64,000 nucleotides of DNA from Bradyrhizobium diazoefficiens. Its GTDB lineage: Bacteria; Pseudomonadota; Alphaproteobacteria; Rhizobiales; Xanthobacteraceae. This document shows, in pieces, positions 19,592 through 53,940 of the stretch. Every line of letters begins with the position of its first letter. The stretch's first letter is position 1. The position numbers and the translations under genes are program-made. The notes under the pieces were generated by a model. That model had not been told where the DNA came from. It saw nothing but the letters and a program-made list of their open reading frames with translations, and did no database searches. The DNA lies in the NCBI RefSeq assembly GCF_016612535.1, contig NZ_JAENXS010000001.1, forward strand, positions 1,451,501-1,515,500. Reading direction: 5' to 3'.

Positions 19592-19636
19592 TGAACAACA
19601 TGATCCACACTTCTGTCAAGTGGATCATTTGATCCA
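19592..19636 (-). promoter_or_regulatory. Paired palindrome operator/promoter, site 1 (aminotransferase-hydantoinase operon)
   Basis: The strong box TGGATCATTTGATCCA (19621-19636) and the weaker TGAACAACATGATCCA (19592-19607) start 29 bases apart. On the minus strand a TTGACA (19619-19614) lies in the 13-base spacer, 1 base after the upstream box, so the boxes flank or cover the -35 and -10 region. The promoter points at the aminotransferase gene. The RpiR gene lies just upstream. Confidence 0.7.
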
Positions 19637-19701
19637 ACGGCACAAAATGTGACCCGCTGCCGCGCGCAAGCTTCGAGCGGCGAACTCGTCCGCGGGCCTG
19701 G

Positions 19702-20673
19702 CTAACGCTTTTTTCGCTTATCTTTTGCTGGGCGCTTTCGCGAAGCCGCGACGGCGGGGCGCCGGCGTTTGATAAGTTTTCCCGAGAGGAGATATTCGCC
19801 AGATCCGTGCAGGAACCGCTCGTTTTCGCGAATCCTGGTTTGTGCAGGCTCGCCAAGACGTCCGATCGCCAAGGCTGCGAGAAGATTGGCTATGGCAATC
19901 GCCCCGAGGGGCGACTCTGGAAATGCCTGGCCGGACGTTTGCGCGACAAAATGCAGACCCGCAAGCTCACTCACAGGCGCAGCGAAACTATCGGTGATCG
20001 AGATTATCTGCCCTCCCGATTGGGCCGCCTTCTCAGCGAGTCGATGAACGACCCGATTGAAGGGTGCAAAAGTTACCGCCACAAACGCATCGCCGGGCAA
20101 GAGGTCCTCGAGAAGACTTTCGGGTGCTCCTCCCGGGCTGTCTAAGAGAATAACGTTTGGCCGCGCCTTTCGTAAGGCATATGCCAATGTATAAGCTGGT
20201 GTGAATGTAGTCCTTCTGCCACAAACAAATACTTTTGGCGCATGCGCCAGAAGATCGACTGCCTCGGTCACCTTTTCCTCGGACAGATGCGCACGAGCCC
20301 GCCTTACAACATCGAGCTCCGCTGCGAAAAACGATTCGATGATGTCATCCAATCGGGCGCCTTCGCCCATTTTGTGGATTAGTGCTCTTGCGGTTTGTTC
20401 GTTGCGAGTGGTCGACAGGCGATCCCTCTGCTGACGATCGCGCATCGTGTCGATGAAGCGCTGCCGCAGTTCGCCGTAGCCGGGCAATCCCATGCGCTGG
20501 GCCAGCCGGACAAGGCTCACGGGGGGGACGTTTGCACGTCGAGCGATTTCCCGCATCGAGTGGAAAGCCGCTTCGTCCGGATTGTTGATAAGATAATGAG
20601 CCGCCTCGACGGCCTGCCCGGACAAATCGACGCAAATTTCCTTGATTTCCTCAACCAGCTCCACTGATCCCAC
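19702..20673 (-). CDS. MurR/RpiR-family transcriptional regulator
   Basis: RpiR proteins combine an N-terminal helix-turn-helix domain with a C-terminal SIS domain that binds phosphosugars or related ligands. This 323-residue protein has the helix-turn-helix in about 35-75 (SMREIARRANVPPVSLVRLAQ, next LPGYGELRQRF) and a SIS domain from about 125 to 270 (KVFVCGRRTTFTPAYTLAYA, ITDSFAAPVSELAG). The tail is very basic (KRRRPAVAASRKRPAKDKRKKR region). It starts with GTG after AGGAG. It is the only regulator in the catabolic part and sits beside paired-palindrome site 1, so it is the first candidate to bind those sites. Confidence 0.85.
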   Translation of the reverse strand: MGSVELVEEIKEICVDLSGQAVEAAHYLINNPDEAAFHSMREIARRANVPPVSLVRLAQRMGLPGYGELRQRFIDTMRDRQQRDRLSTTRNEQTARALIHKMGEGARLDDIIESFFAAELDVVRRARAHLSEEKVTEAVDLLAHAPKVFVCGRRTTFTPAYTLAYALRKARPNVILLDSPGGAPESLLEDLLPGDAFVAVTFAPFNRVVHRLAEKAAQSGGQIISITDSFAAPVSELAGLHFVAQTSGQAFPESPLGAIAIANLLAALAIGRLGEPAQTRIRENERFLHGSGEYLLSGKLIKRRRPAVAASRKRPAKDKRKKR

Positions 20674-20864
20674 GCAGCATCTCCTATCATGCCAGTCCGG
20701 CTGACCGGCAGATATATTCTAGCGACGCCTTGGGTATATAGCCATCCGTCTCTTGGCCATACCGGCGGATGCGCGGGGCCACTCTTCAGCGGAAGAGCAG
20801 CAGCGACGGCGACAGTTCGGCTGTGAAACGCAATAGTCCCGTAGCCTTGATGTCTATATCGGTC

Positions 20865-21773
20865 TCATTGAAGCGAGATGTCCGAATCGCCAAAAAGATC
20901 AACCCGCTTGAGCCGGTTTCGCAGTTCGCCCAGACCTGTCGCGCGTACGATAACCTCGTCCCCCTCAGCCAACAGGACGGGCGGAGTACGGGCAAAACCA
21001 ACGCCGCTTGGCGTGCCGGTCAGCAGTATGTCACCGGGCCTCAATGTCATCCCAAATGAGAGCTCCGCAATCAGCCTCTCCACAGAAAACGCCATCTGGG
21101 AGACCAGAGCATCCTGGAGAACTTCTCCATTCAATAGGCATTGAAGCCTGACTGTACTGAGGTCGACTTCGTCAGGGGTTACAAGGTATGGACCGATCGG
21201 CATCGTCCCATCGATGCTCTTACCCTTGAGCCACTGGCCGCCGTGCCGGCGCTGCAAGTCCCGCTGCGAAACATCATTTGCCAGACAATAGCCGAAGATG
21301 TGGGCCGCGGCTTCGTGCTCGGGGATGCTGCGGCCGGCCTTTCCGATGACCACGGCCAATTCTGCCTCGTAGTCCCATTTGGTCGAGATTCTCGAGTCGA
21401 ATGCGATGGGATCGCGTGGCCCGATAACGGTATCGGGCCCCTTCGTAAAGAAAGTCGGCGCCTTCGGTAGCTCCTTGACATCTTGACTGGCGCGCTTCTC
21501 TTTGCCTTCGTTAAAGTGGTCGAGATAGTTCCATCCCGTGCAAAGGATGTCACGGCGAAAGCGCCGGATGGGCGGGAGAAGCGCCATATCTGCAAGCGCC
21601 ACGTGCTCAGCTTCCTCCCCGCCGACCAGTCGCTTTACTTCGGCCAGCGCTTCGGCCCCACCCTCTATGATTGGCAAAAGATCGCTAAATTCCGTCGGGA
21701 GCAGGATCGCTGTTTCGCCCGAAACGACTCCCACGCGGGGCATATCGCGATAGACTGCAGACACAAGTTTCAT
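20865..21773 (-). CDS. Fumarylacetoacetate hydrolase (FAH) family protein
   Basis: FAH-fold enzymes cleave or decarboxylate beta-diketo acids or hydrate dienoic acids, with a divalent metal. The 302-residue protein has GWNYLDHFNEG, FFTKGPDTVIGP, the metal-ligand region DYEAELAVVIGK and FGYCLANDVSQRDLQ, then LLTGTPSGVGFAR. The start at 21773 has AAGAGA upstream. It follows the FAD-linked dehydrogenase by 13 bases, so the two form one unit. This pairing suggests handling of a 2-hydroxy- or 2-keto-acid. Confidence 0.85.
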   Translation of the reverse strand: MKLVSAVYRDMPRVGVVSGETAILLPTEFSDLLPIIEGGAEALAEVKRLVGGEEAEHVALADMALLPPIRRFRRDILCTGWNYLDHFNEGKEKRASQDVKELPKAPTFFTKGPDTVIGPRDPIAFDSRISTKWDYEAELAVVIGKAGRSIPEHEAAAHIFGYCLANDVSQRDLQRRHGGQWLKGKSIDGTMPIGPYLVTPDEVDLSTVRLQCLLNGEVLQDALVSQMAFSVERLIAELSFGMTLRPGDILLTGTPSGVGFARTPPVLLAEGDEVIVRATGLGELRNRLKRVDLFGDSDISLQ

Positions 21774-21786
21774 TTCTTTGATCTCT

Positions 21787-23241
21787 TCAAAGAGCGTCAA
21801 TACGATGGGTGGCCAGCACCTTGCCGGGATTCATGATGTTACCTGGATCGAAAGCTCTCTTGATCCGAGCCATCATTTCAAGATCGACATTGCTTTTGAA
21901 GCGCTCGAGTTCCTCGATGTGCATCAGTCCAACGCCGTGCTCGGCGCTGATGCTGCCCTCGAGGTCAACACTTGCTTCATGAACAATGAAGTTGGCGCGC
22001 GCAGCCGCCTTTTCTCGCTTTTCGTCCGTGTCATAGACACTTCTATCGAAGACTATAATGACGTGAATATTCCCGTCCCCCACATGACCTGCATAGTACA
22101 CGTCGGCGGCTTCGAACTCCTGCTTGAGCCTCTCATCCACCTGTTCGATAAAGAGCGCTATCTTGGAAATGGGAACGGACGTGTCGTTGGCAACTGAGAA
22201 TCCCTTTCGCATGTTCGCTTCAGAGATTGTATGCCTCAGTTTCCATAGTCGCTCGGCCTTCTTGGAATCCGAGGCAATTACTGCGTCATGGACCAAATCG
22301 CGCTCGACCGCCCCCGCTAGAATTTGCTCAAATATCTCGTTCGGATCCCAATTGGTGCTGCTGTCCGCAAGCTCAATCATGACATACCATGGAGAGGAAA
22401 GAGGCATGGGGGACGGCTCTCCGTGATGCGCGAGAACGTTCTCGAGCTGTCCCTTGGAGATGATTTCGAACGCCTCGACTTTGCCTCCTGCGCTTTCCGC
22501 AAAGATCCTCAGAAGGTCGACAGCCGCCTGTATGTTTGGCAGTGACACCATCGCCGTTCCGCTATTCGTTGGCTGCGGAAAGAGCTTAAGCGCTGCGGCA
22601 GTCACGATCCCCAACGTTCCCTCTGATCCGATAAAGAGCTGCTTGAGATCGTACCCTGAATTGTCCTTCCTCAGGACCTTCAGGCCATTCCAGATCTTGC
22701 CGTCCGGCAGGACGACTTCCAAGCCCAACACGAGGTCGCGCATGTTTCCATAGCGCAAGACATTTACGCCACCAGCGTTGGTAGAAACCAGGCCGCCAAC
22801 TTGGCAACTCCCCACACTGCCAAGCAGCATTGGAAACAGCTTGCCGGCCCGCTCTACGACCTCTCGCAGAGTCGCCAGAATGCAGCCGGCTTCGACAATG
22901 ACCGAATTGTTCAGACCATCTACTTCTCTCACCCGGTTCATTTTTGAAACGTTGAGGATCATGGAAGGACGATCGTTGATGGGGATAGCACCTCCGGTCA
23001 TTCCGGTATTTCCCGCCTGCGGCACTATTGCTATCCCGAGCCTGGAACACAGCTTGACCAGTTCCGAAACCTGCTCCACGCTCGTGGGCAACACTACGGC
23101 CAACGCCTCGCCCTTGTAACGACGCCGCCAATCCATCAGGTAACCAGCCGTCTCGGCAGGCGACGACAGAATCCCCTTAACTCCAGTAATCTCAGTTGCG
23201 GCCGAAATCAGCCGTTGACGCAGCTCGTTTACGTCGGACAT
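21787..23241 (-). CDS. FAD-linked 2-hydroxyacid dehydrogenase (GlcD / D-lactate dehydrogenase type)
   Basis: It oxidises a 2-hydroxyacid to the 2-keto acid with FAD; D-lactate, glycolate and D-2-hydroxyglutarate are usual substrates. The 484 residues carry the FAD-binding PP-loop (VPQAGNTGMTGGAIP, about 73-87), GSVGSCQVGGLVSTNAGGVN, GSEGTLGIVTAA and the C-terminal GHVGDGNIHV and SAEHGVG motifs of the FAD-linked oxidase family. It is the first gene of a two-gene unit with the FAH protein, behind paired-palindrome site 2. Confidence 0.9.
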   Translation of the reverse strand: MSDVNELRQRLISAATEITGVKGILSSPAETAGYLMDWRRRYKGEALAVVLPTSVEQVSELVKLCSRLGIAIVPQAGNTGMTGGAIPINDRPSMILNVSKMNRVREVDGLNNSVIVEAGCILATLREVVERAGKLFPMLLGSVGSCQVGGLVSTNAGGVNVLRYGNMRDLVLGLEVVLPDGKIWNGLKVLRKDNSGYDLKQLFIGSEGTLGIVTAAALKLFPQPTNSGTAMVSLPNIQAAVDLLRIFAESAGGKVEAFEIISKGQLENVLAHHGEPSPMPLSSPWYVMIELADSSTNWDPNEIFEQILAGAVERDLVHDAVIASDSKKAERLWKLRHTISEANMRKGFSVANDTSVPISKIALFIEQVDERLKQEFEAADVYYAGHVGDGNIHVIIVFDRSVYDTDEKREKAAARANFIVHEASVDLEGSISAEHGVGLMHIEELERFKSNVDLEMMARIKRAFDPGNIMNPGKVLATHRIDAL

Positions 23242-23279
23242 GGCCTAAGCATTCTCCAGTCTCTCGCGGCATGAAATGT

Positions 23280-23324
23280 TGAACCATTTGGTTCATCCCA
23301 TTGTCAATAGCTTCATTCGTTCCA
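23280..23324 (-). promoter_or_regulatory. Paired palindrome operator/promoter, site 2 (FAD dehydrogenase-FAH unit)
   Basis: TGAACCATTTGGTTCA (23280-23295) is a near-perfect dyad. At a 29-base offset lies a weaker partner, AGCTTCATTCGTTCCA (23309-23324). The minus-strand TTGACA (23307-23302) sits in the spacer just after the upstream box, exactly as at sites 1, 6, 7 and 8. The FAD dehydrogenase starts 39 bases downstream. Confidence 0.6.
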
Positions 23325-23327
23325 ACC

Positions 23328-25427: not shown

Positions 25428-25444
25428 CGTGATGTAACTTTCGG

Positions 25445-28693: not shown

Positions 28694-30307
28694 TCACGGT
28701 CCGAGCGGCCCGAGTTGCTTGGCATCTTCCTTGATCATGCTGGCCCCCTTCTCAGCTATCATAGTCGTGGGCGCATAAGTGTTACCTGAGGGGACAGTTG
28801 GCATAATCGACGCATCGATCACCCGCAGGCCTACAATCCCGTGCACGCGCAGTCGATCATCGACCACGGCCAGCGGGTCATGACCCATTCTGCAAGTCCC
28901 GGTATGATGGCCATACCCCCTGCCGGTTCGACGTGCATAGTCGAGCAATTCATCGTAGTTCTGAATTTTGTCGCCGGGTCTCATCTCAAAAGCGAGGTAT
29001 TTCGCGATCGCAGGATGGTTCATTATCTTGCGCGCGATCTGCATGCTTGCCACGGCGCAATTGCGGTCGGTTTCAGCCGAGAGAAAATTCGGCCGGATCG
29101 CAGGCTCGCTGCCGGGTACCGGAGATTTGATATGGATCGTGCCCCGTGAAAGCGGCCGGCACTGGCTGGTCGCCACCGTCATACCAGGCTCTCTCTCCAG
29201 GCGCCCGAGCTGTGCCGGATCGTAGCTCCCTGGCCCTATGGCGAACTGCGCGTCAGGCGTTTTTACGCTGGGTGAAGTACGTACAAAGCCGAACACAGGG
29301 GCTGCGGCCCGTGTGAGCACTCCGGTGCCACTGACATAATATCGCACGACTTCCCGCAGAAGGTTGAAGCCCCGGGCCAGCTCATTAAACGTTATCGGCT
29401 GGTTGACGCGCCAAGCCATATTCTGAGCGTAATGAGTACCGTAGCTTTCACCGACACCTGCCAGCTCGTGATGCACCGCGATACCGTGCCTCGTGAGAAG
29501 TTCTGGCTGGCCTATGCCGGACCGTTCCAGCATGCCCGGCGATTGGAGTGCGCCGCACGAGATGATTACTTCGCCGCGGCATCGCGCCTCGCGCATTTCG
29601 TTGTTCAAGGTATAGGCGACGCCAGCCGCCCGTTTCCCCTCAAGCAGGACGCGACCTACCAGCGCCTCGGTCTCAATATGCAGATTTGGCCGGCTCCGCG
29701 CGGGATCCAAGAAAGCTCGGGCTGCCGACCAACGGCGACGACCCTTGATGGTCGCTTGGTAGTAGCCAAACCCTTCCTGATTCCCATCGTTATAATCGCC
29801 ATTGCGCGTGAAGCCAGAGGCCTCGGCAGCGTGAATGAAGGCGTCCCCGAGGGGGTGAGGCTTCTGATCAGATATATTGAGAAGACCGCCTTTGCCGCGA
29901 GCTTCGCCATCCCGGCCCTCATAGTGCTCAACTTTTTTGAAGTAAGGCAGTACGTCCTCGTACGACCATCCGCGATTGCCAAGTCGACCCCAAGTATCAT
30001 AATCGAATGGCTGACCGCGCACGTAGAGCATTCCGTTGATGGAACTCGTGCCGCCCAACCCGCGACCGCTTGAACATGGAAGACACCGCCCGGCCGCACC
30101 TTCATCCGCTTCCATCTGGAAGCTCCAATCGAACTCCCTGTGGTTCCGGAGCTTGGTGAAGCCTGCAGGAATATCGATCCACACTGATTTGTCGCGCGGT
30201 CCAGCCTCGAGCAGCAAGACCTTCAACTTCGCATCATCGCTCAGGCGATTAGCAAGCACACAGCCTGCCGCGCCGGCACCAACGATGATGTAATCCCATA
30301 CGGGCAT
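28694..30307 (-). CDS. GMC-family FAD oxidoreductase, copy 2
   Basis: The 537-residue enzyme has the FAD motif IIVGAGAAGCVLANRLSD (about 6-23), [39 protein letters not shown] and SGNTYAPTTMIAEKGASMI. I start at 30307 (MPVWDYIIVG), with GGGAAG upstream; a longer frame to 30409 runs into the palindrome promoter. By eye it is about two-thirds identical to copy 3 (37283-38887), much closer than to copies 1 and 4, and both share the same promoter layout. It precedes the ThDP enzyme. Confidence 0.9.
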   Translation of the reverse strand: MPVWDYIIVGAGAAGCVLANRLSDDAKLKVLLLEAGPRDKSVWIDIPAGFTKLRNHREFDWSFQMEADEGAAGRCLPCSSGRGLGGTSSINGMLYVRGQPFDYDTWGRLGNRGWSYEDVLPYFKKVEHYEGRDGEARGKGGLLNISDQKPHPLGDAFIHAAEASGFTRNGDYNDGNQEGFGYYQATIKGRRRWSAARAFLDPARSRPNLHIETEALVGRVLLEGKRAAGVAYTLNNEMREARCRGEVIISCGALQSPGMLERSGIGQPELLTRHGIAVHHELAGVGESYGTHYAQNMAWRVNQPITFNELARGFNLLREVVRYYVSGTGVLTRAAAPVFGFVRTSPSVKTPDAQFAIGPGSYDPAQLGRLEREPGMTVATSQCRPLSRGTIHIKSPVPGSEPAIRPNFLSAETDRNCAVASMQIARKIMNHPAIAKYLAFEMRPGDKIQNYDELLDYARRTGRGYGHHTGTCRMGHDPLAVVDDRLRVHGIVGLRVIDASIMPTVPSGNTYAPTTMIAEKGASMIKEDAKQLGPLGP

Positions 30308-30397
30308 AGACTTCCCTGCTCCTTCACACGACCGGCAGAGTGCCCGCGCCACTTGTGATTTCAGCGCATGTGATGCCCGCAATTTATCCAATGGATC

Positions 30398-30442
30398 AGG
30401 AACAGTCAATCCCGCTACAAGGATTCCGGATCATTTGGTTCC
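30398..30442 (-). promoter_or_regulatory. Paired palindrome operator, site 3 (GMC copy 2)
   Basis: CGGATCATTTGGTTCC (30427-30442) is followed on the minus strand by GGGATTGACTGTTC (30413-30400), with box starts 29 bases apart. No TTGACA is present in the spacer, unlike sites 1, 2, 6, 7 and 8. The whole element lies 91-135 bases upstream of the GMC start. The weaker box shares the sequence TCAATCCCG (plus strand) with sites 4 and 5. Confidence 0.6.
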
Positions 30443-33388: not shown

Positions 33389-33433
33389 AAGAACAATCAA
33401 TCCCGACTTTGCGAAATTGGATCATATGTTCCG
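33389..33433 (-). promoter_or_regulatory. Paired palindrome operator, site 4 (TorT-like binding protein)
   Basis: TGGATCATATGTTCCG (33418-33433) pairs with AAGAACAATCAATCCC (33389-33404) at a 29-base offset. Read on the minus strand the order is CGGAACATATGATCCA, 13-base spacer, GGGATTGATTGTTCTT. A possible promoter (TTGCGA, then GATATT) lies just downstream at about 33380-33360. The binding-protein gene starts at 33318. Confidence 0.65.
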
Positions 33434-38887: not shown

Positions 38888-38902
38888 ATTCTGCAGTTCC
38901 AC

Positions 38903-39245
38903 CTTCAGACGAGCACGACGGACTGGCGGCGTTCTGGGCCGTGCCCGCGAGGCTGTCTAAACCATCTTAGGCGGCAGGTGCGGAGCAATCAATCCCGCTG
39001 ACATATATTGGATCATATGGTCCAACAACACTGCTGAACTCGTTGCGCCCAAGCGGCGTAGGATAAGGTAACTCCTGGCGATGAACGCGCGGCACATCGA
39101 AATCTGCGATAAGGGGAGACAAAATCGGCTTGAGCACGGGCCGCTTACGCGCTCCCCTCCTAGATGCGCTCTCTTGCGATCGCCTCCGACAGAGGAGGCT
39201 AACCATCAGAAGAGCCCGATCCGTCGCGAAATCGCGGACGGCTCC
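38903..39245. other. Intergenic region holding palindrome site 5
   Basis: This is the space between the Gfo/Idh gene stop and the GMC copy 3 start, both on the minus strand. Apart from the paired palindrome at 38981-39024, I see no gene-like frame, repeat or terminator. Confidence 0.6.
38981..39024 (-). promoter_or_regulatory. Paired palindrome operator, site 5 (GMC copy 3)
   Basis: TGGATCATATGGTCCA (39009-39024) pairs with CGGAGCAATCAATCCC (38981-38996) at a 28-base offset. The order and the shared AATCAATCCCG are those of sites 3 and 4. The elements lie about 95-137 bases upstream of the GMC copy 3 start. Confidence 0.65.
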
Positions 39246-40232: not shown

Positions 40233-40374
40233 TATTGGTGACTCCTCCAAGGACAGTCGCTCGGTCATTTTGGCCATTCCGAAGCGTCGGTACGAGTACT
40301 AGCTCCTGCAGACAAAGCGATGCAGGAGTGTGGCGCGGCACTTTGGCCGCGGGGTTTGGCTTGCCATGTCCACT

Positions 40375-41964: not shown

Positions 41965-42015
41965 CACGCGCGCTCCAAATCTTCGGCCTTGTGACCAGTC
42001 CACCGTACGTCCATT

Positions 42016-42060
42016 CGGATCATGTGATCCATTATTTGTCAAGATGGATTATATGGTTCC
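42016..42060 (-). promoter_or_regulatory. Paired palindrome operator/promoter, site 6 (GMC copy 4)
   Basis: CGGATCATGTGATCCA (42016-42031) and TGGATTATATGGTTCC (42045-42060) start 29 bases apart. A minus-strand TTGACA (42042-42037) lies 2 bases after the upstream box. Transcription would begin near 42010, so the annotated TTG start at 42042 is in the promoter. Confidence 0.75.
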
Positions 42061-42916: not shown

Positions 42917-42961
42917 TGGATCATACAATCCACATTGACATACATTGGATCACATGATTTT
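42917..42961 (+). promoter_or_regulatory. Paired palindrome operator/promoter, site 7 (Pot-type ABC operon)
   Basis: TGGATCATACAATCCA (42917-42932) and TGGATCACATGATTTT (42946-42961) start 29 bases apart. A plus-strand TTGACA (42935-42940) lies 2 bases after the upstream box. This is the mirror orientation of sites 1, 2, 6 and 8 and points to the plus-strand transporter operon, the only plus-strand unit in this part of the window. Confidence 0.75.
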
Positions 42962-43405: not shown

Positions 43406-44368
43406 ATGTCGAATATCCGTCTCGAGGGCGTGTCCAAGCGCTACGGTAACTTCGCTGCCGTGGACAACGTCGATCTCGAGGTTTCGCAAGGCGAGTTCGT
43501 CACGATCCTTGGACCAAGCGGGTCGGGCAAGACCTCCCTGTTGTCGCTGATCGCGGGCCTCAACCAGCCTACTGCTGGCCGGATATTCATCGGCGGTCGC
43601 GATGTCACCGACGCCCCGCCGCAAACTCGCAACATCGGATTGGTATTTCAGTCGTACGCCTTGTTCCCGCAGATGACGGCGCTGAATAACGTGATGTTCC
43701 CCCTGGGCGTGCGCGGCATCAACGGCTCACTCGCACGCGACCGTGCACTCGAGGCTTTGAAGTTGGTGAGGCTGGAGGGATTGGGCGATCGACGTCCCTC
43801 GCAGCTATCGGGCGGACAGCAACAGCGCGTGGCGCTGGCGCGTGCGTTCGTTTTCAAACCGGACATCCTGCTCCTCGACGAGCCGCTGGGCGCGCTCGAC
43901 CGCAAGCTGCGCGAGGAGTTGCAGATCGAGCTGAAGCAACTCCAGCGCACCCTCGGTGTCACCACCATCCTGGTGACGCACGATCAGGAGGAGGCGCTGT
44001 CGCTTTCCGATCGCATCATGGTGCTCGGCAACGGACGCACGCAGCAGGTGGCGACGCCGGCCGAATCCTATCTGAAGCCCGCCAACCGCTTCGTTGCGGA
44101 ATTTCTGGGCATCGCCAATTTCATCGGACTGCAGGATGGCCGCAGTGGCGTAGTGCGCCCCGAGCGCATACGCCTCGCGGCGAACGGCGAGGGCAAAGCT
44201 GCGCGGGTCGTCGAGGCGATCTATCTAGGCCAGATGGTGCGCTATTATCTGGCGGTGGAAGAAGGAGAGCCCTTGGTGGCTGCAGTGCCGTTCCTCGGTT
44301 CGAACTTCGCAAAGGACGAACGTGTGGTTGTTTCGTGGGACCCCGGCGACGTCTGGCCGGTGGCATAG
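43406..44368 (+). CDS. Spermidine/putrescine-type ABC transporter ATPase (PotA-like)
   Basis: It powers import through the two permeases downstream. The 320-residue ATPase has Walker A GPSGSGKTS (about 36-44), the signature LSGGQQQRVALARAF, Walker B ILLLDEPLGALD and the H-loop VTHDQEEA. A C-terminal regulatory domain ends at about 320. This family also moves other small cations, opine-like and amino compounds, so polyamine is only the family default. It is the first intact gene behind site 7. Confidence 0.9.
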   Translation: MSNIRLEGVSKRYGNFAAVDNVDLEVSQGEFVTILGPSGSGKTSLLSLIAGLNQPTAGRIFIGGRDVTDAPPQTRNIGLVFQSYALFPQMTALNNVMFPLGVRGINGSLARDRALEALKLVRLEGLGDRRPSQLSGGQQQRVALARAFVFKPDILLLDEPLGALDRKLREELQIELKQLQRTLGVTTILVTHDQEEALSLSDRIMVLGNGRTQQVATPAESYLKPANRFVAEFLGIANFIGLQDGRSGVVRPERIRLAANGEGKAARVVEAIYLGQMVRYYLAVEEGEPLVAAVPFLGSNFAKDERVVVSWDPGDVWPVA

Positions 44369-44388
44369 TTCATATCGGAGGGATGAAG

Positions 44389-45423
44389 ATGATCAATCGT
44401 CGTCGTTTTGTGGGCGCGGCTGCCGTCGGGCTGCCGGCAGTCAGCTTTTTGGGCACGCGCCCCGCACGTGCCGAAATCAAGGAAATTCGCATCCTCGAGG
44501 ACGGAGGCATCTCCTCGAAGGCGTGGGAAGCAGGCTTCATCACACCTTTCACCAAAAAGACCGGGATCAAGGTAGTGCAGGAGAGCCCCAACTCGCTGGG
44601 CAGACTGCGCGCGCTGGTCGAGGCCCGACAGACCGATGTCGTATTGTCTACCGGCATGAGTTCGGTCAACATGTTGATCGCGCAGCGCCTCGAGTTGCTC
44701 GAGCCCATCGACTGGGCGGCTGTCAATCCTGCGCCGATCTTTCCGGAAGCCAAGAAGGAGTACGGCCTAGGCCACCAGTACTTCTCAACTGTCATGGCTT
44801 GGCGCGCCGGCATGAAGGAACTCAAGAGCTGGGCCGACTTCTTCGACGCAACGGCATTCCCGGGCAAGCGTGTTCTGATTGATATGCCCCACTATTGCCT
44901 GCCATTCGCCGTTTTGGCGACCGGCGTTGCGGTCGAGAAGCTATACCCTCTCGACGTTGACGCCGGTTTCAAGAAGCTTCGCGAGTTTAAGAACAACGTC
45001 TCTGTGTGGTCGACCACGGTTCCACAAGGGGCGCAGCTCTTGCGGGACAACGAGGTACAGTACGGCATCTGCTTTGCGACCAGAGTAGTTGGCGATTCGG
45101 CCTTGGGCATGACCTGGGCTGGTGGCAAGCTCGATATAGCCTACGCCTGCATTGTCAAGAATTCCAAGCTCGAGGATCGGGCTGCGGCATACAAGCTGTT
45201 GCATGAGATGACACTCCCGGAGAACGAGGCGAAGTACGCGGAGATCCACACTACCCTCGGCGCCTCCGTCGACCTCGAACAGTATCTCCCCAAGGACCAA
45301 CTCTGGAAATTCGCAAATAGCAAGCAAAACAAAATGGTTCAATGGCTCGAAAATTCTCAATGGTGGGCCGACAACGGCGAAGCCGTGAATAAAGAATGGC
45401 AGCAATTCAAGCTTAGCCTGTGA
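44389..45423 (+). CDS. Periplasmic extracellular solute-binding protein (PotD/family 1 type)
   Basis: The 344-residue protein begins MINRRRFVGAAAVGLPAVSF and has a Tat-like signal (RRRFVG) with cleavage after PARAE-type residues near 28. The mature part (FTKKTGIKVVQESPNSLGRL.., TFNLP-like DVVLSTGMSSVNM) fits binding proteins of polyamine-type transporters. I use the ATG at 44389 because GGAGGG lies 6 bases upstream; the ATG at 44383 is too close to it. It lies between the ATPase and the permeases. Confidence 0.85.
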   Translation: MINRRRFVGAAAVGLPAVSFLGTRPARAEIKEIRILEDGGISSKAWEAGFITPFTKKTGIKVVQESPNSLGRLRALVEARQTDVVLSTGMSSVNMLIAQRLELLEPIDWAAVNPAPIFPEAKKEYGLGHQYFSTVMAWRAGMKELKSWADFFDATAFPGKRVLIDMPHYCLPFAVLATGVAVEKLYPLDVDAGFKKLREFKNNVSVWSTTVPQGAQLLRDNEVQYGICFATRVVGDSALGMTWAGGKLDIAYACIVKNSKLEDRAAAYKLLHEMTLPENEAKYAEIHTTLGASVDLEQYLPKDQLWKFANSKQNKMVQWLENSQWWADNGEAVNKEWQQFKLSL

Positions 45424-45464
45424 ACGAGATCAACTCTCCTCTTCTTAGGGAAAGGCTGGAATAG

Positions 45465-46421
45465 GTGCTGGCCGATTCACAATCCGATACGCTCAATGAG
45501 TCATATGCGAACATTTCCCGTTCCTCCGCGCATGAAATGGCGCCTCCTCCGCATAAGAATGAAGGTGAGTTGGCCACGAGCCGCTCTTGCGGCTCGGGAT
45601 TCATCACATCAGGCTTTGGCTTCCTGATCCCCTTGCTGGTGCTGATCGTCGTCGCCTTCGATGCCCCGATCGGATACATGCTGAGCTTGGCCTTCTGGGA
45701 CAATACGAAGGGTTTCACTTTCCAGTCCTACGAGAGTCTCTTGGAAGCGCCGATCTATCTGCGCGTGCTGGCCAACACCTTGGGCATCTCCGTGATTGTC
45801 ACCTTTGCAAACGTCGCGATCGGCTATCCGTTGGCACACTGGATGCGAAGTCTGAGCGGTCGCGCCAAAATCATCGTGATCGCTCTAGTCGTGCTGCCGT
45901 TCTGGGTTAGCGTTCTAGTGAGGACCTATGCCTGGATCGTCATTCTGGGCAATGATGGCCTCGTCAACCGCACGCTGCAATGGCTGGGGCTTACCCACAC
46001 TCCGGTGCAATTCCTTTACAACGCGATTGGCGTGACCATCGGCATGACCGCCGTGCTGCTGCCATTACTGGTGCTGCCTCTGTACGCAGCCATGGTTCGC
46101 ATTGACGACCGACTACTGCGGGCGGCGGCGTCGCTGGGCGCCCCGCCGCGAATGATATTCTGGAAGATCTACTTCCCGTTGACGATGCCGACGCTGGCCG
46201 CCTGCGCATTGCTGGTCTTCATGTTCTGCCTCGGCTTCTACATTACGCCCGCCATCCTCGGCGGCGGCCGTGTCTCCATGATCGCCAATGTACTCGACAT
46301 GCTGATAAACCAGTTTCCGAATTGGGCACAGGCGTCGGCCATCTCGACAATACTTCTGGTCGTTATGCTGCTCATCTTCGCAGCCTACCGTCGTGTGGAT
46401 CAAAAGGTATCGGCAAAATAG
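45465..46421 (+). CDS. ABC transporter permease (PotB-like)
   Basis: An inner-membrane permease of 318 residues with about six membrane segments after a hydrophilic N-terminal extension of about 45 residues. The cytosolic EAA-type loop is LLRAAASLGAPPRMIFWKIYFPLTMP (about 220-245; key residues AA..G), which couples to the ATPase. It begins with GTG at 45465. It is followed by the second permease after 16 bases. Confidence 0.85.
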   Translation: MLADSQSDTLNESYANISRSSAHEMAPPPHKNEGELATSRSCGSGFITSGFGFLIPLLVLIVVAFDAPIGYMLSLAFWDNTKGFTFQSYESLLEAPIYLRVLANTLGISVIVTFANVAIGYPLAHWMRSLSGRAKIIVIALVVLPFWVSVLVRTYAWIVILGNDGLVNRTLQWLGLTHTPVQFLYNAIGVTIGMTAVLLPLLVLPLYAAMVRIDDRLLRAAASLGAPPRMIFWKIYFPLTMPTLAACALLVFMFCLGFYITPAILGGGRVSMIANVLDMLINQFPNWAQASAISTILLVVMLLIFAAYRRVDQKVSAK

Positions 46422-46437
46422 GCATGAAGAGGAATGC

Positions 46438-47250
46438 ATGATCGGTAGTTCTTTGTGGGCGCGGAGCATCCTGGCAGCGATCGGAATTGCTGGCCTTCTG
46501 TTTCTTACGGCGCCGCTAGCCATCGTCATTCCGATGTCATTCTCCTCGGAGTCGGTGCTGACCTTTCCTCCATCCGACCTGTCACTGCGCTGGTATGAGG
46601 CATTCTTCGGCGATACGCGCTGGATGGATGCGATGCGAACGTCGGCGGTTTTGGCGCTGATCTCGTCGATCGTTGCGCTTGGCTTAGGCGGTCTTGCGGC
46701 CTACGGGCTGCGCCGCAGCTCTATTGGGGGCCGTGGCTGGGCAGAGGGAAACTTCCTTGCGCCCCTTTTCGCGCCCACGATCATCATCGCCGTCGCCCTC
46801 TATATCGGGCTCGCTAAAGTCGGCCTGCTTGGCAGCTTCATTGGGCTTGTCTTGGCGCACGCGATACTCAACGCGCCGCTCTGCGTGATGGTGCTCGGAG
46901 TCGCTATCGAAGAGTTCGATCTACGTATCGAGCAGGTGGCATGGAGCCTCGGGGCATCATGGTTCCTTACGCTGCGTAAGGTCGTTCTGCCTGTCCTGGC
47001 GCCCAGCCTATTGACGTCATGGATATTCGCTTTCATGGGCAGCTTCGACGAAGTGATCGTGACGTCTTTCATCGGCGGCACGTACCAGACGGTGCCGAAG
47101 ATGATGTTCAATCAGTTGAAGATCGAGGTAGATCCGACCATTACCGTAATCGCAACCCTGCTCACCACCTTTACGGTCTTGGCGTTGGCGGCGGTTGCGG
47201 CCATTCGTGCCCGCTTGAGTAAATTCAAACCATTCGCGGTCGCCCAGTAG
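46438..47250 (+). CDS. ABC transporter permease (PotC-like)
   Basis: A second inner-membrane permease of 270 residues with six predicted segments and the EAA-type loop RIEQVAWSLGASWFLTLRKV..LPVLAP (about 160-185). AGAGGAA precedes the ATG at 46438 by 4 bases; a frame from 46393 overlaps the previous gene. It completes the PotA-D-B-C set. No clear terminator is seen between it and the IS element. Confidence 0.85.
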   Translation: MIGSSLWARSILAAIGIAGLLFLTAPLAIVIPMSFSSESVLTFPPSDLSLRWYEAFFGDTRWMDAMRTSAVLALISSIVALGLGGLAAYGLRRSSIGGRGWAEGNFLAPLFAPTIIIAVALYIGLAKVGLLGSFIGLVLAHAILNAPLCVMVLGVAIEEFDLRIEQVAWSLGASWFLTLRKVVLPVLAPSLLTSWIFAFMGSFDEVIVTSFIGGTYQTVPKMMFNQLKIEVDPTITVIATLLTTFTVLALAAVAAIRARLSKFKPFAVAQ

Positions 47251-48777: not shown

Positions 48778-49476
48778 CTACACCTCCAGCCATTCCTTCC
48801 GGATTGTAGCGTTGGCTTTGAGGTCGGCCGGAGTTCCTTCGAACACCATGCGTCCGTGACCCATCACATAGAGCCGATCTGAAATGCGAAGGGCGATCGA
48901 GAGCTTTTGCTCGACCAGCAGGATCGCCAAGCCGCGCCTGGCGATGGCGGCGATCAGATCCCCGACCTGCTGCACAATCAGCGGCGCGAGTCCCTCGGTC
49001 GGTTCGTCGATCATGACGAGTTCTGGGTCACCCATCAGGGTGCGGCAGATCGTCAGCATTTGCTTCTCGCCGCCGGAGAGCACGCCCGCCGGGGTGTCGG
49101 CGCGGCACTTGAGATTGGGAAACATGTCCAGCATGTCCGCGAGGCTCCAACGGCAAGGCTTGCGCGGCCCCTTGACGCCCATCAGGAGGTTCTGGCGCAC
49201 GGTGAGCGTTGGAAAGATGTCGCGATTCTCCGGTACATATCCGAGCCCGAGCCTTGCAATGCGATAGCTCGGCAGGCCGGCGATCTCGATGCCTTTGAAG
49301 CGGATCGAGCCGTGCGGCACGACCTCCCCCATAATCGCCTTGACCGTTGTTGAGCGGCCCACCCCATTGCGGCCGAGAAGGCTAACCACCTCGCCAGAGC
49401 GGACCTGCATGTCGACGCCCTGAAGAATGTGGCTTTTGCCGTAGTAGGCGTGCAGTTTCTTAACCTCGAGCATCAC
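48778..49476 (-). CDS. livF: Branched-chain amino acid ABC transporter ATPase LivF
   Basis: One of two ATPases of the Liv system, 232 residues, with the signature LSGGEKQMLTICRTL, Walker B LVMIDEPTEGLAP and the family start MLEVKKLHAYYGKSHILQGV. The Walker A reads GRNGVGRSTT (about 35-44): the essential Lys of GxxGxGK[ST] is Arg, checked at the DNA level (CGC). This should weaken or abolish ATP hydrolysis by this subunit. It overlaps livG by 4 bases and is last in the operon. Liv-type systems also carry amides, urea and aromatics. Confidence 0.9.
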   Translation of the reverse strand: MMLEVKKLHAYYGKSHILQGVDMQVRSGEVVSLLGRNGVGRSTTVKAIMGEVVPHGSIRFKGIEIAGLPSYRIARLGLGYVPENRDIFPTLTVRQNLLMGVKGPRKPCRWSLADMLDMFPNLKCRADTPAGVLSGGEKQMLTICRTLMGDPELVMIDEPTEGLAPLIVQQVGDLIAAIARRGLAILLVEQKLSIALRISDRLYVMGHGRMVFEGTPADLKANATIRKEWLEV

Positions 49477-50234
49477 GCCACCTCCACGCCGAGATAGGCT
49501 TCCTGAACCCGGGCGTTGTTGCGGATCTCATCCGGCGTGCCCGAGGCGATGATCTGGCCGTAGACCAGCACCGATATGCGATCGGCAAGGCCGAACACCA
49601 CGCTCATATCATGCTCGACGATCAAGAGAGTTCGGCCTTCAGTGAGGCGGCGGATCAAGGCCACCGCACGTTCGGTCTCGGCGTGGCTCATACCCGCTGT
49701 CGGTTCGTCCAGCAGGATGACCTTCGCGCCGGCGGCTGTGGTGATACCGATTTCGAGTGCGCGCTGTTCGGCATAGGTGAGAAGTCCCGCCGGCGCCTGG
49801 GCACGTCCAACAAGCCCAACGTCCTCGAGGATCTTTTCGGTACGCTCACGCACATCGCCCAGGCGATCGACATTCTTCCAGAAGGAATAGCGGTGACCAG
49901 CGGCCCACAACAGCGCACAACGCACGTTCTCCCACACGCTCATGCGCGCGAACACGTTGGTCACCTGGAAGCTGCGGGACAATCCACGGCGGTTAATCTG
50001 GAACGGCGGCAACCCGGAGATTACTCGGCCGTTGAGCAGAACCTCGCCAGAGGTAGGCGCCATGTAGCCGCTGATCAGGTTGAAGGTTGTCGACTTGCCG
50101 GCGCCGTTCGGGCCGATGATGGCGTGGCGCTCGCCAGCGGCGACGCTCAAGTTGAGCCCGCGGATGATCTCAAGGCGGCCAAAGCTCTTGCACACCTCGC
50201 GCGCTTCGATAGCCAGCGGCAAGGAGGACGTCAT
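49473..50234 (-). CDS. livG: Branched-chain amino acid ABC transporter ATPase LivG
   Basis: The second Liv ATPase, 253 residues. It has a normal Walker A GPNGAGKSTT (about 40-49), NVFARMSVWENV, a signature-like LLTYAEQRALEIGI, Walker B VILLDEPTAGMSHAE and the H-loop IVEHDMSVVF. The LivG-specific insert between Walker A and the signature is present. It overlaps livM and livF by 4 bases each. Confidence 0.9.
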   Translation of the reverse strand: MTSSLPLAIEAREVCKSFGRLEIIRGLNLSVAAGERHAIIGPNGAGKSTTFNLISGYMAPTSGEVLLNGRVISGLPPFQINRRGLSRSFQVTNVFARMSVWENVRCALLWAAGHRYSFWKNVDRLGDVRERTEKILEDVGLVGRAQAPAGLLTYAEQRALEIGITTAAGAKVILLDEPTAGMSHAETERAVALIRRLTEGRTLLIVEHDMSVVFGLADRISVLVYGQIIASGTPDEIRNNARVQEAYLGVEVA

Positions 50235-51532
50235 GTGAGATACCCTTCGGCGCGGGCGGCTGTCATGGCGTCGTCCCAGGCGCGAGCGACGCCGGTCCAG
50301 GTGACGCGGGCGATTGCGAAACCGCCGAGCGTCAGCACTGCCGCGATCGCCCAGCTCAACGGCCCGCTGGTGTCCATGCTGAGGCCGAACAGGTGCATCA
50401 TCGGATTGTCGCGGCTGTCAACCGCGTGGCGCGCCACAATCTCGACGCCAAGCACCAGGCCCGTCAGCATCATCGCTGTGGGCGGCGCCGCAACCAGATA
50501 GGCACGCAGCACGCGCATGATCTCGCCGGCGCGCCAGATCGGCCGGTGCCGCAGCAGCAGCCCCGCGATGCCTTCTGGAGCGAACGCCACCACGGCGATG
50601 AAGATCAGTCCGAAATAAAGCTGCCATACGGAACTCAGATCGCTCAGCACCAGCGAGAGATAGGTGATGAAGATCGCGCCAACGATTGGCCCGATGAAGA
50701 CGCCGATCCCGCCGATATAGGCGGCGAATAGTGCTAACCCCGACTGCTGAGCGCCGAGGTACGCGGAATTGGCGATTTCGAAGTTGATCGCTGACAAGGC
50801 ACCAGCGCTGCCAGCGAAAAAGCCGGCAAACGTGAATGCAATGAAGCGGATGACATGGGGATCGAAGCCGATGAACTGCACACGCTCCGGGTTGTCTCGT
50901 ACCGCATTGCACATCCTTCCAAATGGTGTGCGGGTCAGCGCGTACATCGCGACCAGTGCGATGATCGTCCAAGCCGCCACAAGATAATAAATCTGGATTT
51001 GCAGTCCGAACGAGAAGCCGAATGAGTGCAACAGCTTGGTGCGATTGGTGGTAATGCCAGCCTCGCCGCCGAAGAAACTGCGCAAAATCAAGGTCGACGA
51101 GGCGACCAACTCGCCAACCCCCAGCGAGATCATGGCGAAGGCGGTGCCACCGCGACGGGTAGATACCCAGCCCAACAGAAGCGCGAACGCAAGGCCGGCG
51201 AAGCCGCCAATTAGCGGCACGACCGGCAACGGCACCGGCCATTTCGCCGCCCCCAGGAAATTGATGGCGTGAACGGCGAGAAAGCCGCCGAGTCCGTAAT
51301 AGACCGCGTGACCAAACGACAGCAGGCCGGTCTGGCCGAGCAGGATGTTGTAGGATAGCGCAAAGATGATGGAGATGCCGGCCAGGCTGAAAGTCGTTAG
51401 CGAGCCGCCGGACGAGAACACCCGCGGCAGAATCAGTATCACGAGGATGACCGCCAACCAGGTTCCATAGAATCGCAGTGCATCGCGTCGTGTCGAAGAC
51501 GCTCTAAGCGGGAGCGGGGTGACAATGGTCAT
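50231..51532 (-). CDS. livM: Branched-chain amino acid ABC transporter permease LivM
   Basis: A polytopic inner-membrane permease of 433 residues with about ten hydrophobic segments. It shows LLGQTGLLSFGHAVYYGLGGF, a hallmark of LivM, and the cytosolic coupling segment PFGRMCNAVRDNPERVQFIGFD. About 90 residues at the C-terminus extend beyond the usual end and include one more hydrophobic segment. It overlaps livH and livG by 4 bases. Confidence 0.9.
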   Translation of the reverse strand: MTIVTPLPLRASSTRRDALRFYGTWLAVILVILILPRVFSSGGSLTTFSLAGISIIFALSYNILLGQTGLLSFGHAVYYGLGGFLAVHAINFLGAAKWPVPLPVVPLIGGFAGLAFALLLGWVSTRRGGTAFAMISLGVGELVASSTLILRSFFGGEAGITTNRTKLLHSFGFSFGLQIQIYYLVAAWTIIALVAMYALTRTPFGRMCNAVRDNPERVQFIGFDPHVIRFIAFTFAGFFAGSAGALSAINFEIANSAYLGAQQSGLALFAAYIGGIGVFIGPIVGAIFITYLSLVLSDLSSVWQLYFGLIFIAVVAFAPEGIAGLLLRHRPIWRAGEIMRVLRAYLVAAPPTAMMLTGLVLGVEIVARHAVDSRDNPMMHLFGLSMDTSGPLSWAIAAVLTLGGFAIARVTWTGVARAWDDAMTAARAEGYLT

Positions 51533-52476
51533 GTTGCGCGCGTTCCCAACAGGCCCATCGGGCGGAAGATCAGGATCAGCACCAGCAGCAGGTAGGGCAG
51601 CACGGGGGCAATCTGAGCGATGCTGACGTTCCAGATGTCCGTCAAAAGCGAGGGCGCGTGTGCCGGATCGAGCGAGCCAAACAGACTGCCCAATGAGGTG
51701 TTGATCGCGACAGCAAACGTCTGCAGCAAGCCGATCAGAAGCGAGGCGATGAGGGCGCCAGGTAACGAACCGAGCCCGCCTACCACAATCACCACGAAGA
51801 GGATCGGGCCGAGCAGCGCCGCCATGTCGGACTGGGTCACCAAAGCCGGACCGGCGATTACACCGGCGACTGCAGCGAGCGCGGTGCCGAGCCCAAACAC
51901 CAGCATGAAGATCTGCCCCACATTGTGGCCGAGATGGGCGACCATCTGTGGGTGGGTCAGTGCGGCTTGCACGATCATACCGATCCGGGTGCGCTTGATG
52001 CCGAGCAGCAACACCGCGAAAATCACCAATGCCATGGCCAGCATGAATACCTTGTAGGCGGGGTAGTTGGTGGAGAAGACCGTGAAGGCCGGGAAGTCGA
52101 GCAACTCTGGCACCCGGTAATCCACCGGCGCCTTGCCCCAGATCACCTGCACGGTTTCCTGGATGACATAGGCTAAGCCGAAGGTGAACAGCAGCTCGGC
52201 GGCGTGGCCGTTCCGGTGCACATTGCGCAGGCCGTAGTGCTCGACCGCTGCGCCGAGCGTACCCGCGGCCAGCGGCGCGATCAGCAGTGCCGGCCAGAAT
52301 CCGAACCAGCGACTGAGCTGATAGCCGAAGAAGGCACCGAGCATGTAGAACCCGGCATGGGCGAAATTGAGTACGCCCAACATGCTGTAGATGACGGTCA
52401 GGCCGCTCGCCATCAGGAACAGCAGCATACCAAACAGGATTCCATTGAGCGTGGACGTGAAGATCAACTCAGACAT
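51529..52476 (-). CDS. livH: Branched-chain amino acid ABC transporter permease LivH
   Basis: A 315-residue inner-membrane permease with about eight hydrophobic segments, the LivH hallmark GLTVIYSMLGVLNFAHAGFYMLGAF and the coupling segment RTRIGMIVQAALTHPQMVAHLG. It follows the binding-protein gene after 120 bases and overlaps livM by 4 bases. Confidence 0.9.
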   Translation of the reverse strand: MSELIFTSTLNGILFGMLLFLMASGLTVIYSMLGVLNFAHAGFYMLGAFFGYQLSRWFGFWPALLIAPLAAGTLGAAVEHYGLRNVHRNGHAAELLFTFGLAYVIQETVQVIWGKAPVDYRVPELLDFPAFTVFSTNYPAYKVFMLAMALVIFAVLLLGIKRTRIGMIVQAALTHPQMVAHLGHNVGQIFMLVFGLGTALAAVAGVIAGPALVTQSDMAALLGPILFVVIVVGGLGSLPGALIASLLIGLLQTFAVAINTSLGSLFGSLDPAHAPSLLTDIWNVSIAQIAPVLPYLLLVLILIFRPMGLLGTRAT

Positions 52477-52596
52477 GCGCCTCCTTGCAGTACGTCAATT
52501 ATTGCGCTGCGCACGCAACAGGCCGTCGCGTGCACTTGTTTGAAGTGCCTTCACCGCCCCCTAGTCCCGCGTCGTCAAGGGAGACGTCGGACCGGC

Positions 52597-53832
52597 TCAG
52601 GGGCGTTCCATCTTGCAAGTGGTGGGCAGAATGGTCTGCTGCGTGTCAATCTTTCCCAATTGACGCCAGCCCCATCCGGTCTTCTCCTCGTCGAACGGTT
52701 CCTTCTCGCTTCGCTCGCCGAACGAGGAAATGTACATCGGCCTGAAGAACTGGTGATCGTCCTTCCGCATGAAACCGTTACCGCCATCCAGCACTTCGTA
52801 CGGCATGCCCTCAAGCGCTTTGGCTATTTTGATCGGCTCGAGCGACTTTGTCTGCTCGACTGCGAGCTTGAGCATCATCATCTCGTCGCTAATGACCGCA
52901 CGCGGATAGGCGCTGACGCCATACCTGGCGCGGAATGCCTTCTCGAACTCAGCCAGACCGGGAGCACCCAGATTCGGTACGCCTTCCGAGATCTGAAAGA
53001 CCTGATGGTCGAGCCCGGCCTGCTTGATCGCGGTCGGGCCGCCAATGTTGCTGGCATAGTAGGTGTACCAGTTGGCTTTGAGGCCAGCGTCGGCTGCGGC
53101 CTTGAGCAGTAGCGCGAAATCTTGACCCCAGTCTCCGGTGATGACGCTGTCGGCGCCCGACGCCTTGATCTTGGCGACATAAGGAGCGAAATCGGTGACT
53201 TTCAAAAGCGGGTGCAACTCGTCTCCGACGATCTGAACGTCGGGCCTCTTCGCTGCAAGCATCTTACGGGCCTGAGTTCGTACCGATTCGCCAAACGAAT
53301 AGTCCTGGTTGATCAGATAGATCTTCTTCACCTGCGGCGCTGTCTTTATGTAGTTGGTGAGGGCCTCCATCCGGACGTCTGAGTTGGCATCGAACCGGAA
53401 ATGCCAAAAACTGCACTTCTCGTTGGTGAGCACCGGATCGACTGCGCCCCAGTTGAGATATAGCACTTCGTGGTCGGGGTTGCGCTCGTTGTACTTGGTC
53501 ACAAAATCTGTCAGGGCGCCGGCGACCGACGAGCCGCCGCCATGGGTCAGAATCCGAATCCCGCCATCGATTGCCTTCTGCGCCTGAATCAGACTCTCCT
53601 GCGGATTCGTCTTACCGTCGAACGGGATGACTTCCACCTTCTTGCCCAAAAGGCCGCCCTTGGCGCTGAGTTCGTCTGCGAGAAACTTAAACTGCTTGAG
53701 TACAACCTCTGCGCCAGCGGCGCCGCCGCCAGATAGCCCATCGATTAAGCCGATTCTGACAGTGTCCTCCGCTCGTGCAGCACCGATCGCAAGCGGCAGC
53801 GCGACGAGCAGGGTAGCGACAGATGTGCGCAT
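52597..53832 (-). CDS. Branched-chain amino acid ABC transporter periplasmic binding protein
   Basis: The 411-residue Leu/Ile/Val-type binding protein has a signal peptide (MRTSVATLLVALPLAIGAAR, cleavage after ARA near 21) and a two-lobe core: IGLIDGLSGGGAAGAEV, GGSSVAGALTDFVTKYNERN, FRFDANSDVRMEALTNYI and GDWGQDFALLLKAAADAG. GGGAGGAAA lies upstream of the ATG at 53832; the longer frame runs into palindrome site 8. The ligand may be a branched-chain amino acid, an amide or an aromatic acid. It heads the livJHMGF-type operon. Confidence 0.9.
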   Translation of the reverse strand: MRTSVATLLVALPLAIGAARAEDTVRIGLIDGLSGGGAAGAEVVLKQFKFLADELSAKGGLLGKKVEVIPFDGKTNPQESLIQAQKAIDGGIRILTHGGGSSVAGALTDFVTKYNERNPDHEVLYLNWGAVDPVLTNEKCSFWHFRFDANSDVRMEALTNYIKTAPQVKKIYLINQDYSFGESVRTQARKMLAAKRPDVQIVGDELHPLLKVTDFAPYVAKIKASGADSVITGDWGQDFALLLKAAADAGLKANWYTYYASNIGGPTAIKQAGLDHQVFQISEGVPNLGAPGLAEFEKAFRARYGVSAYPRAVISDEMMMLKLAVEQTKSLEPIKIAKALEGMPYEVLDGGNGFMRKDDHQFFRPMYISSFGERSEKEPFDEEKTGWGWRQLGKIDTQQTILPTTCKMERP

Positions 53833-53895
53833 GGAATTTCCTCCCGTTTTCCTCAGCAAGTCCGACAGCCCACAACGTCCAAACATACGTGAAAT

Positions 53896-53940
53896 TGGAA
53901 CATCTGATCCACGAATTGTCAACATGGATTGTATGTTTCC
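53896..53940 (-). promoter_or_regulatory. Paired palindrome operator/promoter, site 8 (Liv operon)
   Basis: TGGAACATCTGATCCA (53896-53911) and TGGATTGTATGTTTCC (53925-53940) start 29 bases apart. The minus-strand TTGACA (53922-53917) lies 2 bases after the upstream box. The binding-protein gene starts 64 bases downstream. Confidence 0.75.

Follow-up and report, generated by a model that had tools for sequence, protein, structure and literature searches.

A 64,000-nucleotide stretch of Bradyrhizobium diazoefficiens DNA (assembly GCF_016612535.1, contig NZ_JAENXS010000001.1, positions 1,451,501 to 1,515,500; hereafter "the window", with positions counted from its first letter) carries eight pairs of palindromes in front of the genes of an island. 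These pairs are very probably the operators of the RpiR-family protein encoded at 19702..20673, on which two dimers would repress transcription until an inducer appears. The observation itself proved to be genuine, sharply delimited and shared by other genomes; the genomes compared show directly where the sites are, that their geometry is fixed, that they are conserved and that an rpiR gene is physically linked to them.

An earlier note, made from the letters of the window without database searches, had listed the eight pairs with start-to-start distances of 29 bp in seven and 28 bp in one (38981/39009), and every pair was recovered at its coordinates and with its spacing:

19592..19636, minus strand: paired operator 1, TTGACA in the gap, matched by the R1 profile described below, before the class III aminotransferase and hydantoinase A/B genes; an ATG preceded by GGAG lies 30 bp downstream, and the orthologous site in Bradyrhizobium genome G602 is L054:14316.
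23280..23324, minus strand: paired operator 2, 29 bp, TTGACA in the gap, before the genes for FAD-linked oxidase, FAH-family hydrolase and RpiR; an ATG lies 38 bp downstream, and the corresponding sites are L054:10616 and L016:7287.
30398..30442, minus strand: paired operator 3, divergent, before a GMC oxidoreductase gene; missed by the strict Rhizobiaceae-trained matrix.
33389..33433, minus strand: paired operator 4, divergent, before the gene of a TorT-like periplasmic protein; missed by the same matrix.
38981..39024, minus strand: paired operator 5, divergent, 28 bp, before a GMC oxidoreductase gene; missed by the same matrix.
42016..42060, minus strand: paired operator 6, 29 bp, TTGACA in the gap, before GMC and GFO/IDH/MocA oxidoreductase genes; its counterpart in G602, L055:7158, is upstream of the MocA homologue there.
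42917..42961, plus strand: paired operator 7, 29 bp, TTGACA in the gap, before Pot-type ABC transporter genes.
53896..53940, minus strand: paired operator 8, 29 bp, TTGACA in the gap, before Liv-type ABC transporter genes; an ATG preceded by GGAGG lies 63 bp downstream.

Read in gene direction, each pair consists of an upstream box, a gap of 13 bp (12 bp at 38981) and a downstream box. In five pairs, referred to as canonical, the gap opens with one or two bases followed by TTGACA. The hexamer had been described in the earlier note as lying 1-2 bp after the upstream box towards the next gene, and it indeed stands 1 bp past the box at 19.6 and 23.3 kb and 2 bp past it at 42.0, 42.9 and 53.9 kb. 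GGAT-N6-ATCC is the commonest form of the palindrome, GGAA/TTCC halves being a minority. The divergent subclass comprises 30398, 33389 and 38981, where the gap is without TTGACA and the second box is aberrant, reading GGGATTGA(C/T)TG(T/C)TC(C/T); the string GGGATTGAYTGYTCY is common to the second boxes of all three, at 29/28 bp. Their first boxes are strong (16.5-23.2 bits with a window-trained matrix). At 30398 the second box contains TTGACT, with TAAATT 17 bp on (TTGACT-N17-TAAATT), and at 38981 it contains TTGATT, with TAAGAT 17 bp on (TTGATT-N17-TAAGAT), so the promoters of these two pairs may be displaced by some 16 bp with respect to their operators; inspection of the sequence after the second box of 33389 revealed no comparable -10 element.

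The consensus palindrome with up to three mismatches occurs six times in the window against 0.20 expected (100 shuffles), and all six matches are boxes of the listed pairs (6 of the 16 boxes). To avoid circularity, the matrices for further tests were trained on 28 Rhizobiaceae sites only, none of them from the window. The strict matrix (symmetric single box; both boxes >0, sum >14) recovered five of the eight pairs at 29 bp, namely 19592, 23280, 42016, 42917 and 53896; its background in 150 first-order Markov windows was a mean of 0.13 and a maximum of 2 pairs at 28-30 bp. Seven pairs were also found in the window at other spacings (16-80 bp), five of them formed with a box that belongs to a listed pair. 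The looser matrix (oriented two-box, sum >8) lists all eight pairs at 28/29 bp, some of them scoring better on the strand opposite the gene. Its background at 28-30 bp had a mean of 1.4 and a maximum of 5 (60 Markov windows), and it returned many rows at other spacings, up to 25 bits, mostly with strong boxes reused, so the three divergent pairs (scores 13-22) are not established by it. An origin as chance palindromes was rejected for the five canonical pairs and, less firmly, for the three divergent ones.

The genome scan for the paired motif that the earlier note had proposed was performed with R1, a profile built from the eight window sites only (from a MAFFT alignment in which the spacer of the 28-bp site received one gap). 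In the own genome of 7,989,248 bp nothing was found outside the window at E<=10 (150 of 399 first-look candidates scored), and the 12 rows obtained were the eight sites and four opposite-strand echoes. All matches lie in one island and are not scattered. A dispersed repeat was rejected as well, given this confinement and the lack of conservation of spacer and upstream flank in the Rhizobiaceae set.

In the larger genome searches only the best first-look candidates were scored, with stricter filters, and weak sites may be missed. Among 397 genomes of an order sample, R1 matched four at E<=0.01 (G000, G023, G266, G330) and the RpiR protein matched three at E<=1e-60 (G000, G023, G136). For 195 genomes of the own genus, two were matched by RpiR (G000, G602) and three by R1 (G000, G602 and, weakly, G591). 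Six of 148 genomes of Rhizobium, the genus of G023, were matched by R1 (E<=0.02) and the same six by RpiR (E<=1e-60), each listed R1 match lying within ~16 kb of an rpiR gene; independence arithmetic puts this 6/6 overlap at 1 in ~1.3e10, but with linkage in one cluster independence is not the appropriate null hypothesis for picking out RpiR. Orthologues with 66-81% identity are encoded in named Bradyrhizobium, Rhizobium, Agrobacterium and Ensifer contigs, and pairs were located within 10 kb of rpiR in seven of the eight named contigs, the exception being the short Ensifer contig L019. Furthermore, rpiR is present on nine plasmid records, with pairs in all four that were examined. These four named plasmids, which entered no model, yielded 12 pairs when the spacing was restricted to 28-30 bp, all 12 of them at 29 bp and with TTGACA, and when they were scanned whole at E<=1 all matches lay within ~22 kb of an rpiR gene.

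The geometry is also preserved outside the window. In 320,458 bases of loci around relatives, the window-trained single-box matrix detected 36 boxes above 17 bits, 33 of which have a second box scoring >3 at exactly 29 bp, with at most two at any other distance between 10 and 80 bp; this test was not pre-selected for spacing, although some pairs contribute both boxes and many anchors are orthologous. In a curated set of 40 sites, 37 have TTGACA in the gap (predicted promoters) and 39 are spaced at 29 bp, the latter count being partly a matter of selection since the sites were drawn from a list limited to 28-30 bp. Left out of this set were L055:14673, two pairs in L067 and one each in L068 and L069, as well as L017, L018, L021, L022 and L023, which are duplicates of the same contigs. 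The seven orthologous aminotransferase promoters have 13 of 16 invariant columns in box 1, 13 of 16 in box 2 and 6 of 7 in TTGACA with its preceding base, against 0 of 6 in the remaining gap, 0 of 60 in the upstream flank and 9 of 40 in the downstream flank. At sites beyond the window, most upstream boxes are near-perfect palindromes. The downstream box retains TGGATCA but varies in its other half, where GTGTTCA-like letters are the commonest form, as would be expected if this box also has to serve the -10 region. In Rhizobium and Agrobacterium, two pairs often stand back to back at divergent promoters.

The regulator gene lies between the first two operators:

19702..20673, minus strand: RpiR-family regulator, the proposed cognate repressor, with the Pfam domains HTH_6 and SIS; orthologues are encoded near the operator elsewhere.

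Both domains score above their cut-offs, the N-terminal HTH_6 (PF01418) with 34.1 bits against 28.3 and the C-terminal SIS (PF01380) with 31.3 bits against 25. The predicted structural model (mean pLDDT 83, pTM 0.66) matches RccR, NanR, 3sho and MurR, with the RccR structures on top, and the fold of its SIS domain matches MurR with a TM score of 0.89 on the target and 2.0 A. A phosphate-binding loop is described as highly conserved in four studied members (PMC12713135). At the place of this serine/threonine loop, which reads S-S-S-G-S-T in VvNanR, 19 aligned homologues have T-F-x-P-[FY]-[NS]; 3sho, filed as RpiR family, likewise departs from the VvNanR loop, and the loop is a feature of the four studied members and not of the family model. 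Because the serine-rich loop is replaced in the 19 homologues, the sequences weakly suggest that the ligand is not a sugar phosphate. RpiR was the only transcription factor that Pfam recognised among 40 open reading frames (ORFs) of the window, and no other kind of regulator is annotated close to the core genes on every one of the four plasmids; on one of these a TetR gene adjoins rpiR, and on another a response regulator is encoded nearby. RpiR is the best regulator candidate found, in agreement with the earlier note, which had named it for binding tests. It should be added that G602 has two rpiR copies 12 kb apart (G602:C1:1596385-1609246, L054), 92-93% identical to that of the window, with a single strong box beside the minus-strand copy.

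From these comparisons of sequence we infer RpiR binding, repression over activation, a tetramer, autoregulation and an inducer. One RpiR dimer would bind each 16-bp palindrome (consensus TGGATCA-NN-TGATCCA), and the two dimers, probably as one dimer-of-dimers tetramer, would cover ~45 bp. In the canonical form the gap would hold the -35 hexamer TTGACA and the downstream box would lie over the spacer and the -10 region; the bound repressor would exclude RNA polymerase until a compound of the pathway, either its substrate or an intermediate, made the protein dissociate. Such inducible repression is favoured because of the position of the second box between -35 and -10. For E. coli MurR, the proposal is that one tetramer spans 47 bp and thereby joins two neighbouring sites over -35/-10 (PMC12713135), and two dimers flanking and covering the same region would by analogy fit the 45-bp element. 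The rpiR gene is probably autoregulated from operator 2, since the FAD oxidase gene, the FAH gene, a 191-bp gap and rpiR follow that operator on the same strand. The suggestion of two dimers acting over the promoters of a local regulon, made in the earlier note, is supported by comparative genomics, and a fixed 29-bp pair at many promoters offers a natural test of RpiR tetramers clamping promoters.

Several observations weigh against repression by RpiR through these pairs. The strict Rhizobiaceae-trained matrix misses 30398, 33389 and 38981, whose second boxes are poor, and the -10 elements, read by eye, look weak by the E. coli consensus. Moreover, a distance of 29 bp does not correspond to an integral number of helical turns: the "nearly three" turns of the earlier note hold as an approximation (~2.8 turns of 10.5 bp), but the boxes are not exactly on one helix face. 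The Ensifer contig L019 encodes an orthologue, yet there is no pair in its 9 kb; G136 of the order sample has an RpiR homologue (50% identity) without an R1 match at E<=0.01; and one R1 match each occurs in the orthologue-less genomes G266 and G330 (E 0.003-0.004) and in G591, likewise without the orthologue, that of G330 lying within an ORF and that of G591 being partial (E 0.015). Near a contig end of G136 (L067), weaker pairs with TTGACG or TTGCAT are situated near an aminotransferase homologue, and the G136 version is perhaps an early-branching form of the system. Finally, co-occurrence with rpiR would be equally expected for other genes of the same mobile cluster, and the regulator scan covered 40 window ORFs and some ORFs of the Rhizobium loci. 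The operators might accordingly belong to another regulator, encoded elsewhere or in an unscanned ORF, with RpiR as a passenger of the cluster, from whose other genes co-occurrence cannot separate it as long as operator and rpiR are linked. We regard this as very improbable: among the genes scanned or annotated, RpiR is the one regulator that the window shares with Bradyrhizobium sp. 190, Rhizobium and the four plasmids alike, and GGAT-N6-ATCC resembles the operator GGAA-N6-TTCC of the RpiR-type regulator IolR (PMC2597717).

Two further alternatives keep RpiR and alter its mode of action or its set of sites. RpiR could activate from the same operator, the upstream dimer above -35 recruiting polymerase and the downstream dimer remodelling the spacer. 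Box 1 does end 1-2 bp upstream of TTGACA, and a position just upstream of -35 is close to that of a class II activator. An activating member of the family, SpNanR, is reported (PMC12713135), which speaks against repression, and GlaR of Lactococcus is an RpiR-family activator by the title of its paper (PMC6528599). Activation is nevertheless quite improbable here, as box 2 lies between -35 and -10, a perfect -35 TTGACA argues for a strong promoter held down, deletion of IolR derepresses (PMC2597717), and all reported RpiR regulators except SpNanR are repressors according to PMC12713135, a statement that the GlaR title contradicts. The divergent pairs at 30.4, 33.4 and 39.0 kb could instead each consist of one box only, the second element having arisen by chance or being put to a different use, in keeping with their TTGACA-less gap, their absence from the strict-matrix results and the lack of a counterpart in 80 kb from Bradyrhizobium G602, where the GMC genes were also not found. 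This we consider unlikely in view of the strong first boxes, the GGGATTGAYTGYTCY shared by the second boxes and, in two of them, a TTGAYT-N17-TAARWT-like promoter.

Repression by paired RpiR dimers has partial precedents. The earlier note did not recognise the operator as a described site, and the literature indeed gave no description of it or of these genes (coverage was limited, so that this absence is weak evidence); within the RpiR family, however, the proposed MurR pair over -35/-10 is a precedent for the arrangement (PMC12713135), and the IolR palindrome comes close to the sequence (PMC2597717). As with E. coli MurR, two adjacent palindromes cover a predicted -35/-10 region; unlike it, the sites are 13 bp apart instead of 17, the SIS phosphate loop is unconserved whereas MurR binds a sugar phosphate (PMC12713135), and a large regulon repeats a single geometry at many of its promoters. 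Alphaproteobacterial IolR (Caulobacter and others) is likewise an RpiR-type repressor of a catabolic module with an SIS domain and a palindrome, GGAA-N6-TTCC (PMC2597717), whereas the half-site here is mostly GGAT(C) and the pathway is different. Its motifs at Caulobacter iolC lie 104 and 45 bp before the start codon and not 29 bp apart (PMC2597717). Pseudomonas RccR, also of the RpiR family, has two copies of a palindromic site upstream of aceE, but these are 68 bp apart and read TGTAGT/ACTACA, and the ligand is 2-keto-3-deoxy-6-phosphogluconate (KDPG) (PMC5489143). The operator is a variant of a known RpiR paired-operator kind, attached to a pathway for which no description was found.

The genes placed under the eight pairs are as follows:

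18185..19591, minus strand: class III aminotransferase (Pfam); the start is probably ~30 bp below the operator, and solved relatives include GSAM and beta-transaminases.
16032..18110, minus strand: hydantoinase A, caprolactamase-alpha-like (629 bits, under the cut-off of 1000 of that model).
14192..16081, minus strand: hydantoinase B.
21787..23241, minus strand: FAD-linked oxidase (GlcD-like), target of pair 2.
20865..21800, minus strand: FAH-family hydrolase (Pfam), target of pair 2.
28694..30409, minus strand: GMC oxidoreductase, target of pair 3.
32239..33318, minus strand: TorT-like periplasmic binding protein, target of pair 4.
37283..38902, minus strand: GMC oxidoreductase, target of pair 5.
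40375..42042, minus strand: GMC oxidoreductase, target of pair 6.
39246..40277, minus strand: GFO/IDH/MocA oxidoreductase, target of pair 6.
43406..47250, plus strand: Pot-type ABC transporter genes, target of pair 7.
48778..53925, minus strand: Liv-type ABC transporter genes, target of pair 8.

Of two TorT models (NCBIfam), one is passed by the TorT-like protein, and neither hydantoinase A nor the aminotransferase reached an NCBIfam cut-off among the matches listed. In Rhizobiaceae, the core beside rpiR consists of the class III aminotransferase, hydantoinase A and B, GMC oxidoreductase and FAH-family hydrolase genes, often accompanied by ETF genes and an ABC transporter; the transporter neighbours give no pointer to the substrate.

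The use of calystegines by rhizobia has been known since the 1980s. Calystegine catabolism was attributed to plasmid pRme41a of S. meliloti Rm41 (PMC3556828), and on this plasmid the operator accompanies orthologues of the rpiR, aminotransferase, hydantoinase A/B, GMC and FAH genes; on NC_018682.1 it occupies two places, 144509 and 135222, within ~135-158 kb (L070). The Bradyrhizobium island differs in having more genes. The location of the cluster on a calystegine-catabolic plasmid suggests, without proving it, an inducer of nortropane type; no source was found that names the pRme41a genes acting on calystegines, and the plasmid has many other genes. Our guess is that the substrate comes from plants and is a polyol or lactam containing nitrogen, perhaps a nortropane of calystegine type; hypothetically, a polyhydroxy nortropane would be a fitting substrate for polyol oxidation, lactam-type hydrolysis and transamination. 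The same switch beside the same regulator gene in distant root-associated bacteria points to one repressor governing the use of a probably plant-derived compound. A wider proposal, tentative and on balance unlikely, is that a loop-less RpiR subfamily of plasmids and islands responds to a plant alkaloid or lactam without a phosphate group, calystegines being possible examples. Through the rigid double operator, this subfamily would govern a regulon for calystegine-type nutrition in rhizobia and agrobacteria. For a catabolic pathway of which no characterisation was found, the present data thus name a candidate regulator, its operator and a delimited set of genes. The pathway is common to plant-associated members of Bradyrhizobium, Rhizobium, Sinorhizobium, Agrobacterium and Ochrobactrum, and is plasmid-borne in several cases. 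If the link to pRme41a is true, the genetics of rhizobial calystegine use becomes directly testable.

Some features of the island stand apart. About 445 bp (42961-43406) separate the plus-strand operator 7 from the start of the Pot-type ATPase ORF, where the ATPase of a relative aligns from residue 1 at 43406; the leader is therefore either unusually long or includes an unrecognised element. To the right of the window (L025:1-10000) lie more relatives of island genes (TorT-like, 75%; hydantoinase A/B-like, 32-34%), with no paired operator in the 20 kb scanned. Transposase fragments (DUF772 and a DDE domain, in overlapping ORFs) occupy 47415-48652, between the Pot and Liv sets.

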